A DNA stretch of 45,543 bases from Nitrososphaeraceae archaeon. Lineage in GTDB: Archaea; Thermoproteota; Nitrososphaeria; Nitrososphaerales; Nitrososphaeraceae. The DNA is taken from contig JAKEIK010000048.1 of NCBI GenBank assembly GCA_022545895.1, positions 1 through 45,543 on the forward strand. The letters are read 5' to 3'. The position numbers and the translations under genes are program-made. Positions 26,462-30,872 of the stretch are shown here, piece after piece. Positions within the stretch are counted from its first letter, which is position 1; every line of letters starts with the position of its first letter. A model generated the notes under the pieces. That model had not been told where the DNA came from. It saw nothing but the letters and a program-made list of their open reading frames with translations, and ran no database searches.

Positions 26462-27841
26462 ATGTCCATTCTACCGATAGATTCTTGTCGTTATGGCAGT
26501 GAGGAAATGAAAGAGATATTTAAGGAGGATATGAAGCTCCAGTACCAACTTAATTTCGAAGCAGAAGTCGCAATTACTCAAGCGAGGTTAAACATCATAC
26601 CTCCTGCCGCTGCAAAGGAAATTTCTGTGTTAGCAAAATCAAAAATGATAACATCGAAAAGGGTCAAACAGTTAGAAAGGATAAGCGAACATGATACCGC
26701 CGCAGTTGTAGAGGCAATAAGTGAACGATGTTCATCGGTGACAAAACCATGGGTACATTTTGGACTTACCAGTAACGATGTCATCGATTCATGCACTTCT
26801 ATGCAGATAAGGGATGCATTTGCGATCTTGGAACCAAAACTTTCAAAATTATCTCTAGCGATGTTAAATAAGGCAAGGGAATTTCGCAGGGTGCCTGCTG
26901 TAGGTAGAACTCATGGCCAACATGCTAGCATAATTTCCTTTGGTCTAAAATTTGCTGTTTGGGCAAGCGAACTGGCGCAGCATTTAGATCGTATCGAAGA
27001 AGGTAAGAAAAGATTTCTTATGTGCAAAACTCTTGGTGTCGTCGGCACTGGGTCCCTCATGGGAACCAGGGCAATTGAAGTTCAAGAAAAAGTGGCGGAG
27101 AGATTGGGCCTGAACCCTATAGAAGCAGCAACCCAAGTCATTCCGAGGGAGAGGTTTGCCGAATCACAATTCGTCCTTTCGTTAATAGGTTGTACGCTTG
27201 ACAAAATAGCGGTAGAAATTCGTAATCTACAAAGAACCGAAATTGGAGAGGTAGAAGAACCGTTTCGAAAAGGACAAATGGGTAGCAGTGCTGTACCTGT
27301 GAAAAGAAACCCAATTAAGAGTGAAAGGGTATCTTCTTTGGCGCGAATTCTTCGTTCTTTATTGTCTGTTGCTATGGAAAATATCCCTTTGTGGCATGAA
27401 AGAGACCTTACAAATTCAGCCAATGAACGATTCACATTTCCGATGTCGTTTATTCTTATAGATGAAATGCTCAATACTATGTTAAGGATATTTGAGGGTC
27501 TGAAAGTTAATCCTCAAAGAATCAAGGAAAATATCAATAAAACTAAGGGGCAGATCTACTCAGAATTCTTACTCGAGGCGCTCGTAAAAAAGGGGATCCC
27601 AAGATTTTCTGCATATCGGGATATTCAACGGATTGCATTTGATGCTCTCGAAAATGAAGAAGATTTCCAAGTTATAGTAATGAAAGATCCTTCAATCATG
27701 AAGAACCTAACCTTCGCAGAATTAAAGAAGATTTTTAATCCATCAAATCATTTGTCTGCTTCAGAAAGAATTATAACAAACGTATCGAACGGAGTGAAGA
27801 AGACTATTTCCAAATTAGGATCTGGGGGTAAAATTAAATGA
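26462..27841 (+). CDS. purB: Adenylosuccinate lyase
   Basis: 459 residues. It cleaves SAICAR and adenylosuccinate to release fumarate in purine synthesis. Recognised: HFGLTSNDVIDS, VGRTHGQHA (catalytic His), and the fumarate-lyase signature GSSAVPVKRNPIKSE. The signature loop has Val where Met is usual (SSAMPxKRNP), a mild change. Start ATG 26462. The 3' end overlaps the convergent gene by 8 bases. Confidence 0.96.
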   Translation: MSILPIDSCRYGSEEMKEIFKEDMKLQYQLNFEAEVAITQARLNIIPPAAAKEISVLAKSKMITSKRVKQLERISEHDTAAVVEAISERCSSVTKPWVHFGLTSNDVIDSCTSMQIRDAFAILEPKLSKLSLAMLNKAREFRRVPAVGRTHGQHASIISFGLKFAVWASELAQHLDRIEEGKKRFLMCKTLGVVGTGSLMGTRAIEVQEKVAERLGLNPIEAATQVIPRERFAESQFVLSLIGCTLDKIAVEIRNLQRTEIGEVEEPFRKGQMGSSAVPVKRNPIKSERVSSLARILRSLLSVAMENIPLWHERDLTNSANERFTFPMSFILIDEMLNTMLRIFEGLKVNPQRIKENINKTKGQIYSEFLLEALVKKGIPRFSAYRDIQRIAFDALENEEDFQVIVMKDPSIMKNLTFAELKKIFNPSNHLSASERIITNVSNGVKKTISKLGSGGKIK

Positions 27842-28586
27842 TGTCCTTGTAATTCTTGTGGATTAAAGTGCCGTATTGAAAAGCCTTTTTGCGATGTATA
27901 ACTGAATCTTCAGGAACATCAAGCGATAGAGCAATTTTTCTTAAAATATGCTTTCGTAAAAAATCAGTCGATCCTTGTATCTTATGACTTACCGGTATCT
28001 CCATTGCAACTGAAATGAATTTTTCAGAAAGGAAAGGTTGCTTAACTTGTATATTAAAAGCTTGAATGGTTTGGTTTATCTCGCTCATTAGTTCGAATTC
28101 ATTTGCAATCTTATCCGTTATGGCCTTGTTGATACATGAATCTCCCTGATTAAAAATCAGTCTGTAACTATTATACCCGCAAAACAGCTCATCAAAACCA
28201 TTTGCCGTTAAGATGGTTTTAATTCCATAGGTGGCGGCTAATTTGGCAACATAGTAAAATGCGATACAATTTTCAACATGAGATCTGGTTTTACATGAAA
28301 TTTCCTTTTGAATTCTACGAGAGGTTCTAAGGAAATCATCGTAGGTAATTTCTAGAATCAAATGGACCATATTCATTTTAGATGATATTAATTTGGAATA
28401 TACAATATCATGAGAATTTGAAAAGCCTACGGTTAGTAAGATTGCATTTGCTTCAAGGTTTCGGCATACACTTGCTAATAAGGCACTGTCGACCCCACCA
28501 GAAAAAGCAATTCCTATAGTATTGATGTTCAAAATACTCTGCCTTACGCTTTCAAAAATGGCGTTTTTTAAATCGGTCTTTAACAA
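27834..28586 (-). CDS. Asparagine-synthetase-like PP-loop ATPase without glutaminase domain
   Basis: 250 residues. The PP-loop AFSGGVDSALLAS (residues 27-39) binds ATP; TANGFDELFCGYNSYR matches the Asp/Glu-binding segment G-x-D-E-L-F-x-G-Y of asparagine synthetase B, and VKQPFLSEKFISVAMEIP the later conserved block. The N-terminal Ntn glutaminase domain is absent, so it would have to use ammonia or another amine. The start is TTG 28586, with an in-frame TGA four codons upstream. In an ammonia oxidiser free ammonium is available, which makes ammonia-dependent amidation plausible but unproven. Confidence 0.88.
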   Translation of the reverse strand: MLKTDLKNAIFESVRQSILNINTIGIAFSGGVDSALLASVCRNLEANAILLTVGFSNSHDIVYSKLISSKMNMVHLILEITYDDFLRTSRRIQKEISCKTRSHVENCIAFYYVAKLAATYGIKTILTANGFDELFCGYNSYRLIFNQGDSCINKAITDKIANEFELMSEINQTIQAFNIQVKQPFLSEKFISVAMEIPVSHKIQGSTDFLRKHILRKIALSLDVPEDSVIHRKKAFQYGTLIHKNYKDII

Positions 28587-29687: not shown

Positions 29688-29930
29688 ATGTCTGAAGAGG
29701 GTATCGCAAGCCAAGTACTTCAAGAAAATGTTGGTAAGTCCGTACTAGTCAAGTTGAAAGGCAGAAAGATTATTCGGGGTAAGCTCAAATCCTTTGACAA
29801 ACAAATGAACCTATTGCTCCAAGAGGCGATAGATATCTCTGAACAACACACCGGTGAAAAACAGTCGGAAATTCAAATGGGAGACATATTAATACGAGGC
29901 GACAATGTCATTATTATCTCTGTGGTGTAG
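29688..29930 (+). CDS. LSm (Sm-like) archaeal RNA-binding protein
   Basis: 80 residues. Sm1 motif: VGKSVLVKLKGRKIIRGKLKSFDKQMNLLL; Sm2 motif: GDILIRGDNVIIISVV (I-R-G-x-N-V). It should form a heptameric or hexameric ring that binds U-rich RNA. TATA-like sequence about 37 bases upstream. Confidence 0.95.
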   Translation: MSEEGIASQVLQENVGKSVLVKLKGRKIIRGKLKSFDKQMNLLLQEAIDISEQHTGEKQSEIQMGDILIRGDNVIIISVV

Positions 29931-30062: not shown

Positions 30063-30872
30063 ATGAGAAGAGTTGTGTTAGATAGCAGTACAAAGTACAT
30101 CGATAGTAAGGGCAATCTATTCAAGAGTAGGCTCGAATTAACAATATCGAAATTATTAACATTCCTAGGTCAGCATTATGAGTATAACTTTTCAATACAT
30201 CTTTCTGATGGCTCTGTGGCTGTTGTGGATTTCAAAGTAGGAGATAGGTACATTGAAGTACTTGATACTGATGAAGATATGGAAAAATTTGAAAGAGTAA
30301 GAAAAGAAAATCCTTCTTTGAATTTAATAGGCGTGGGAACCTCGAAGTATGCTGAAAAGGCCGAAGGTTTGAATTTTATTGCGATTAGTGATACGGTCGG
30401 AGATCATATTGGTTCGATATTTATTGAAGATCCCTCGTTAGCTTTTGACTATGCACATATCCTTCCGTTGGTCGAAAAGTGCTCAATTTTACACGGACAC
30501 ACTTCGACTGTCATGGTGGAGATCATAGGGAAAATGACAAATAACCTTGTCATTGACTTCAGTGAAGCGAAAAAATTAGTGAAGGACGCCTTATCTAATC
30601 TTGATCACAAATTTTTCATAAACGAAAAATATTTGCAAAGAGAAGATAGTCTTCATTATTTTGTTTCCTTTGAAGGACCTCGCGGTCTTTTTAACCTACA
30701 ATTACCAAAGAGTACTACTTTCCTTCTTCCAGGAGAAGCCACAGTGGAAAATCTATCCTCAATAATAATAGATATACTAGCATCAAAGATGCCCCCAAAC
30801 GTAGAAGCACTGGGGGTCTATATTTATGAAGGCGTAAATAAAGGTGCACATATTCTCGCAAATATTAGGTAG
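30063..30872 (+). CDS. Fusion of a PD-(D/E)XK-like N-terminal domain with a 6-pyruvoyl-tetrahydropterin synthase (PTPS/QueD) domain
   Basis: 269 residues. C-terminal ~122-269 is a PTPS-family fold: zinc ligands H132, H144 and H146 (FDYAH; LHGHT), cysteine C140 at the catalytic place, VIDFSEAK (D165) and D181-H182. Such enzymes act in queuosine/archaeosine or pterin synthesis. The first ~115 residues look like a restriction-endonuclease-type fold: SRLE25, then a strand pair ending in VVDF (D56), and RYIEV (E65). The usual lysine two residues after E65 is leucine, so nuclease activity is doubtful unless K58 substitutes. The fusion is unusual for PTPS, normally ~120-150 residues alone. Which PTPS reaction is done cannot be told from sequence. 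Confidence 0.82.
   Translation: MRRVVLDSSTKYIDSKGNLFKSRLELTISKLLTFLGQHYEYNFSIHLSDGSVAVVDFKVGDRYIEVLDTDEDMEKFERVRKENPSLNLIGVGTSKYAEKAEGLNFIAISDTVGDHIGSIFIEDPSLAFDYAHILPLVEKCSILHGHTSTVMVEIIGKMTNNLVIDFSEAKKLVKDALSNLDHKFFINEKYLQREDSLHYFVSFEGPRGLFNLQLPKSTTFLLPGEATVENLSSIIIDILASKMPPNVEALGVYIYEGVNKGAHILANIR

Follow-up and report, generated by a model that had tools for sequence, protein, structure and literature searches.

A conserved archaeal gene fusion joining a nuclease-fold domain to a QueD (PTPS-I) domain

Background

Enzymes of the PTPS family are assigned by short signatures, CxxxHGH in PTPS-I, CxxxxxHGH in PTPS-II, and ExxHGH in PTPS-III (PMC5041015). For the comparisons below, COG0720, TIGR03367, E. 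coli QueD (4ntk), and Pyrococcus horikoshii PH0634 (2dj6) served as references for QueD/PTPS-I, and T7 endonuclease I, PF05367, and the PDB entries 1m0d and 1fzr as references for phage endonuclease I, together with the related phage nucleases of HVTV-1 (gp37) and Erysipelothrix phage phi1605. Concerning the PD-(D/E)XK nucleases, there are families in which the motif-III lysine has moved to the next helix or motif IV (PMC1913061). Domains of this kind have also become RNA binders: RAP domains possess a restriction-endonuclease-like fold, and many of the proteins that carry them take part in RNA binding (PMC8190603), while metazoan Maelstrom is described as an RNA-binding protein of nuclease ancestry (PMC4408791). 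The TgtA of Thaumarchaeota reportedly has no RNA-binding PUA domain (PMC6790972).

Here, we describe a gene in which a QueD domain is preceded by a nuclease-fold domain. It is situated in a stretch of 45,543 bp from a Nitrososphaeraceae archaeon (contig JAKEIK010000048.1, hereafter the window). The enzyme is an ordinary and known one, whereas the domain architecture is apparently new, i.e., an old and conserved fusion that apparently has not been described: a search of the open-licence literature found no description of a PTPS/QueD fusion in Thaumarchaeota, which is weak evidence of novelty.

Results

The fusion gene and its distribution

The fusion is encoded by one unbroken reading frame from ATG to TAG (Table 1). 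A preliminary description of the locus had joined the two halves in one protein; a frameshift between them was looked for, and a single intact frame of 269 amino acids was found. As that description had supposed, the fusion recurs in other Nitrososphaeria: of 101 related genomes, 64, complete ones among them, encode it in frame and essentially unshortened, three more have a partial copy, and six contain only an unfused PTPS. A second collection yielded 72 fusion loci, nearly all titled Nitrososphaeria and a few of them cut by contig ends. The fusion is real and conserved.

Table 1. Features of the fusion locus in the window (residues in protein numbering)
Feature	Position	Strand	Evidence
Fusion gene, N-terminal PD-(D/E)XK-like domain plus QueD (PTPS-I) domain, 269 aa	30063..30872	+	ORF, Pfam PTPS, orthologues, alignment
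N-terminal domain, residues 3-117, predicted nuclease fold related to phage endonuclease I	30069..30413	+	AlphaFold2, Foldseek, PHROG, phage nuclease alignments
Motif III of the N-terminal domain, lysine replaced	E65-V-L67-D68	+	alignment
Putative QueD/PTPS-I catalytic domain	30441..30851	+	Pfam, alignment, Foldseek, motif rule (PMC5041015)
Gene for an LSm/Sm-like protein of 80 aa, a neighbour outside the system	29688..29930	+	Pfam LSM (E 3e-19)

The QueD half

The C-terminal half matches Pfam PTPS at residues 127-263 (E 1e-17; 64.7 bits, cut-off 22.4) and falls among PTPS/QueD structures in Foldseek. The zinc histidines H132, H144, and H146, and likewise C140, S141, G145, D181, H182, and E256, show no variation among the 60 orthologues aligned, such that the zinc histidines and the cysteine are intact, as previously noted. 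The motif C140-S-I-L-H144-G-H146 constitutes the CxxxHGH signature of PTPS-I/QueD; the signatures of PTPS-II and PTPS-III are absent, the position after C140 being occupied by S, whereas ExxHGH of PTPS-III requires E. With the NCBIfam equivalog TIGR03367, the fusion reaches 57.3 bits and thus stays below the cut-off of 89.25; an unfused archaeal QueD (L110) falls short of it as well (72.5 bits), so that the threshold seems to be a strict one where archaea are concerned. PHROG 14221, a functionally uncharacterised phage family spanning 310 positions, also matches the final 65 residues of this half (residues 200-264, window 30660-30854; E 3e-6).

Genome context of the pathway

Family searches of the genome found no second PTPS gene. 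QueC (C15:394-1032), a QueE-like match with a score below the cut-off of its model (C15:1094-1612), and FolE (C15:1865-2371) share one contig that lacks QueD, and TgtA, which is present in 31 of 32 relatives checked, is situated on a different one. As the only PTPS of a genome that contains TgtA and whose preQ0 gene set is without QueD, the fusion most likely produces the 6-carboxytetrahydropterin needed for archaeosine and would thus supply the QueD step of archaeosine synthesis. This assignment is well supported by the comparative data, the activity in vitro being what one would expect from it. FolE would provide dihydroneopterin triphosphate, which the fusion protein, as the cell's presumed 6-carboxy-5,6,7,8-tetrahydropterin synthase (QueD, PTPS-I), would turn into 6-carboxytetrahydropterin; QueE and QueC would then produce preQ0, and TgtA would put it into tRNA on the route to archaeosine.

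In related genomes, QueC lies directly downstream of the fusion at 13 of 40 loci, and is followed in five of these (L104-L107, L109) by a GTP cyclohydrolase of the FolE2/MptA type. The unfused QueD genes of L110, L112, L114, and L115 adjoin the same type of cyclohydrolase. In ammonia oxidisers, GCYH-IB (FolE2) was looked for and found to be absent, FolE being used instead.

Gene neighbourhood

The partners of the fusion at other loci are QueC, GTP cyclohydrolase, or pterin-4a-carbinolamine dehydratase. A gene for the latter is found upstream of the fusion in the same orientation at 31 loci, mostly within about 110 bp and mostly in Nitrosopumilales and Nitrosotalea (e.g., L076:5649-5927), which is consistent with pterin chemistry. 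A conserved RNA gene was not found among the neighbours at the loci searched. In the window, an LSm gene is situated 136 bp upstream of the fusion, and the preliminary description had seen a link in this adjacency; at none of the other loci searched is an LSm gene found upstream, and the linkage was rejected.

A further gene of the window (27834-28586, minus strand) encodes an asparagine synthase-like ATP-pyrophosphatase of 250 amino acids without a glutaminase domain, which scores far under the asparagine synthase cut-offs. It is kept beside the fusion at most of the loci checked (a cluster of 28), mostly in divergent orientation.

Fold and relatives of the N-terminal domain

Based on a 60-sequence alignment, AlphaFold2 predicts the N-terminal domain with a pLDDT of 83 and a pTM of 0.77, in the order helix 21-32, strands 38-44, 50-57, and 60-65, helix 68-80, and strand 85-91 (domain numbering, i.e., protein numbering minus two). 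The full-length model has a pTM of 0.53 and does not fix the arrangement of the two domains. Compared with the PDB by Foldseek, the domain matches Bax1, R2 endonuclease, AF1548, AbaSI, Can2, T7 endonuclease I, and Vsr at probabilities of 0.77-1.0, and also DrdV; the individual E-values are weak (best 3.6e-3), but nearly every high-probability match is a PD-(D/E)XK nuclease.

At the sequence level, 29 of the 60 members match PHROG 29037 ('endonuclease', best E 2.2e-7), 11 match PHROG 945 ('endonuclease'), and eight match PHROG 9019 ('Holliday junction resolvase'). Weak tblastn matches lead to nucleases of a cyanophage, a halovirus, and an Erysipelothrix phage. The profile alignment to the three phage proteins spans motifs I to III and beyond, with hhalign E-values of about 1e-6 in single comparisons. 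The cyanophage protein (L262) is a member of PF05367 (phage endonuclease I), and its PDB match is T7 endonuclease I. The window domain itself has no match to PF05367, and none is listed among the 60 members, the link running indirectly through PHROG 29037, PHROG 945, and L262. Further relatives, which form a second set, occur within archaeal helicases and in a small protein; in these, it is mainly the first helix and strand that align.

For residues 1 to about 120, Pfam and NCBIfam gave nothing above chance, and Pfam, run on the domain alone or on the 60 members, gave hits at chance level only and no nuclease family. A sequence search of the PDB with the domain profile found nothing, and a single-protein scan of a viral collection found no relative. 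PADLOC returned one weak match (0.003) to PDC-S68. Taken together, it is well supported by the model and its structural matches that the N-terminal 115 or so residues adopt a PD-(D/E)XK nuclease fold, as had been proposed from the motifs, with phage endonuclease I-type nucleases as the probable nearest relatives.

Active site and selection

The motif order SxxE, DF, YIEV noticed before is present as S22-x-x-E25, D56-F57, and Y63-I-E65-V, and the catalytic lysine is replaced, as had likewise been stated: the usual lysine position is L67 in the window protein, I, L, or V in 86 alignment rows, and K in none of 88 (a conservative count; 89 rows have a letter there), followed by D or E at position 68 in most rows. 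The domain thus departs from the pattern of active nucleases (E in motif I, D in motif II, E-x-K in motif III). The acidic triad E25/D56/E65 is complete in 43 of 60 members and persists in most ammonia oxidisers, D56 and F57 being nearly invariant. It is broken in Nitrosocosmicus (G25, K65) and, by other changes, in families f10, f11, f14, and f17. Nuclease function has likely been lost, and we infer that nuclease activity is absent. Loss of the lysine was also considered as a rule for this class of nucleases and dropped: the phage relatives keep ExKG at motif III, and only the archaeal helicase-type relatives lack the lysine.

Mean identity amounts to 40% in the N-terminal domain vs. 70% in the enzyme half, and median dN/dS in 40 close pairs to 0.09 vs. 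0.04. By these measures, the N-terminal domain is under purifying selection, yet a looser one, and evolves about twice as fast as the enzyme half.

Evolution of the fusion

In an unrooted tree built from 77 PTPS-domain sequences, the full fusions group together without exception in a single clade (ultrafast bootstrap 99, SH-aLRT 99), such that sequence and comparative data support a single origin of the fusion. In family f30, which sits in a neighbouring group, a homologous N-terminal extension is shortened and its motifs are lost. If this remnant stems from the same event, the fusion would be older than the clade of full fusions, an age put conditionally because the tree is unrooted.

The complete genome G204 possesses no fusion, only an unfused QueD of another clade, which indicates that the pathway can run without the additional domain. 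This QueD (L199, G204:C1:243173-243499; 120 aa) belongs to a small complete genome of a Nitrosopumilales family and represents a natural replacement. In L040 (1297-1574), the N-terminal domain occurs a second time about 1.4 kb upstream of the intact fusion, as a decayed copy interrupted by stops and frame breaks, and a similar fragment lies at a contig edge (G005:C74:3-197); both suggest a past tandem duplication.

Other PTPS proteins carry N-terminal extensions of their own. QueD proteins of another lineage (family f45: L197, L201, L202) have a short one of about 70-90 aa, and a PTPS of 331 aa in family f19 (L214:467-1459, minus strand) has a different one of about 160 aa, together with an altered motif C-R-A-T-H-A-H. 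Homology of these extensions to the N-terminal domain was tested for and not found.

Discussion

The reading we favour, with a probability of roughly 0.6, is that of a QueD whose N-terminal domain is a retired nuclease of the phage endonuclease I type and now serves mainly in structure or assembly. Its fusion to QueD would have taken place a single time, in the ancestor shared by the ammonia-oxidising archaea and their sister families; the domain would no longer cut and would have been retained mainly for structural reasons, probably because it helps the QueD oligomer to assemble, to remain stable, or to contact partners. That the lysine is lost, the triad partial, and the domain acidic, fast-evolving, and shrunken in one lineage favours such a retired structural domain over action on a nucleic acid template. 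The structural role as such we infer largely by elimination of the alternatives considered in the following.

Among these, the one that fares best, though we consider it unlikely, is that the domain, though inactive as a nuclease, has kept the ability to bind tRNA, DNA, or rRNA and holds QueD close to the end use of the pathway. The nuclease fold found by Foldseek and the precedents of RAP and Maelstrom speak for it, and the missing PUA domain of TgtA (PMC6790972) leaves room for another RNA tether. However, the domain is acidic, with a net charge of -5 in the window protein, a median of -3, a positive charge in only six of 60 members, and a pI of 5.3, which argues against nucleic acid binding; its best-conserved positions are mostly hydrophobic, aromatic, or glycine and not basic, the substrate of QueD is a free pterin, and no RNA gene is among the conserved neighbours. 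The binding suggested in the preliminary description is therefore disfavoured by the charge and by the loss of the triad in several lineages. Its extension to base modification on a template fits poorly with the QueD signature and the complete preQ0 pathway, which would act on free pterins, and so does a pterin-sensing regulator with the invariant catalytic residues and with the gene being the only QueD of its genome. Somewhat more doubtful still is the idea of a captured phage-type junction nuclease serving as a nucleic acid- or partner-binding module that couples the synthesis of the archaeosine precursor to its RNA target or to DNA metabolism.

Concerning the enzyme half, it appears improbable that it belongs to a different tetrahydropterin pathway (for folate or a biopterin-like cofactor), be it instead of or besides archaeosine. 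The dehydratase gene in the same orientation upstream at 31 loci would fit this, but the signature is CxxxHGH and neither ExxHGH of the folate-type PTPS-III nor CxxxxxHGH of PTPS-II, QueC directly follows the fusion in many lineages, and the sole PTPS of the genome coexists with QueC, the QueE-like gene, FolE, and TgtA.

We give slightly less credit yet to a metal-dependent nuclease that is still active, with Lys75 in the following helix taking over the function of the lysine and a regulatory or historical link to QueD. Lys75 is kept in 70 of 91 rows and lysine migration to motif IV is known from other families (PMC1913061), such that residual nuclease activity is unlikely rather than impossible; the triad, complete in 43 of 60 members, points the same way. 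Cyanophage L262, however, retains the ExK lysine in addition to a lysine at the position of Lys75, which makes it doubtful that Lys75 is a substitute. Several lineages have an incomplete triad while the remainder of the protein is maintained, and there is no obvious use for a constitutive housekeeping nuclease on QueD. Finally, an artefact of assembly or gene calling that fused two unrelated genes is already refuted by the comparative data: one relative (L169:1049-1866, genome G472) carries a frameshift inside the N-terminal domain of its fusion gene, but the one-frame fusion in 64 independently assembled relatives out of 101 and at the 72 loci of the second collection rules out an assembly error or a chance reading frame.

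As a QueD, the fusion would provide the step of archaeosine synthesis that has seemed to be missing from ammonia-oxidising archaea. With the N-terminal part read as a retired structural domain, a fold that cuts DNA would have become a lasting component of an enzyme that acts on small molecules. As the lineages range from a near-intact active site to a shrunken remnant, they allow one to trace how a nuclease domain goes out of use. The case also calls for caution in deducing a function solely from a neighbouring LSm gene or from the presence of a nuclease motif.

Comparison with known systems

No RAP protein is known to be fused to a pterin enzyme. The restriction-endonuclease-like fold is shared with the RAP domains of FASTK and organelle RNA proteins (PMC8190603), whereas no sequence match between these and the N-terminal domain was found. 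The PD-(D/E)XK domains of the archaeal helicases and small nuclease-like proteins (L160, L162, L165, L170) resemble the fusion in the first helix and strand ('LVRSKSE..IAN.L...GI.YEYE') and are also without the motif-III lysine (E-H-L/F-G or E-Y-W-G). Unlike the fusion, they keep the glycine after motif III, and their hosts are nucleic acid enzymes or small nuclease-like proteins, not metabolic ones.

With QueD/PTPS-I, the fusion has in common the CxxxHGH motif, the zinc histidines, DH and E, the fold, and the neighbours QueC, QueE, and FolE. It differs in the additional, probably nuclease-derived N-terminal domain of about 115 aa, in its TIGR03367 score under the cut-off, and, compared with P. 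horikoshii 2dj6, in a longer stretch (about 40 aa) from DHK to EATVEN. With phage endonuclease I, it shares the order SxxE - YEY - DF - IEV and the topology, and with the cyanophage member also the next helix with a lysine and the subsequent NPxLDI-like strand. Despite this similarity, the phage proteins have ExKG as their motif III, whereas the fusion has Ev(I/L/V)(D/E); its N-terminal domain is without a Pfam match and is joined to an enzyme of pterin chemistry.
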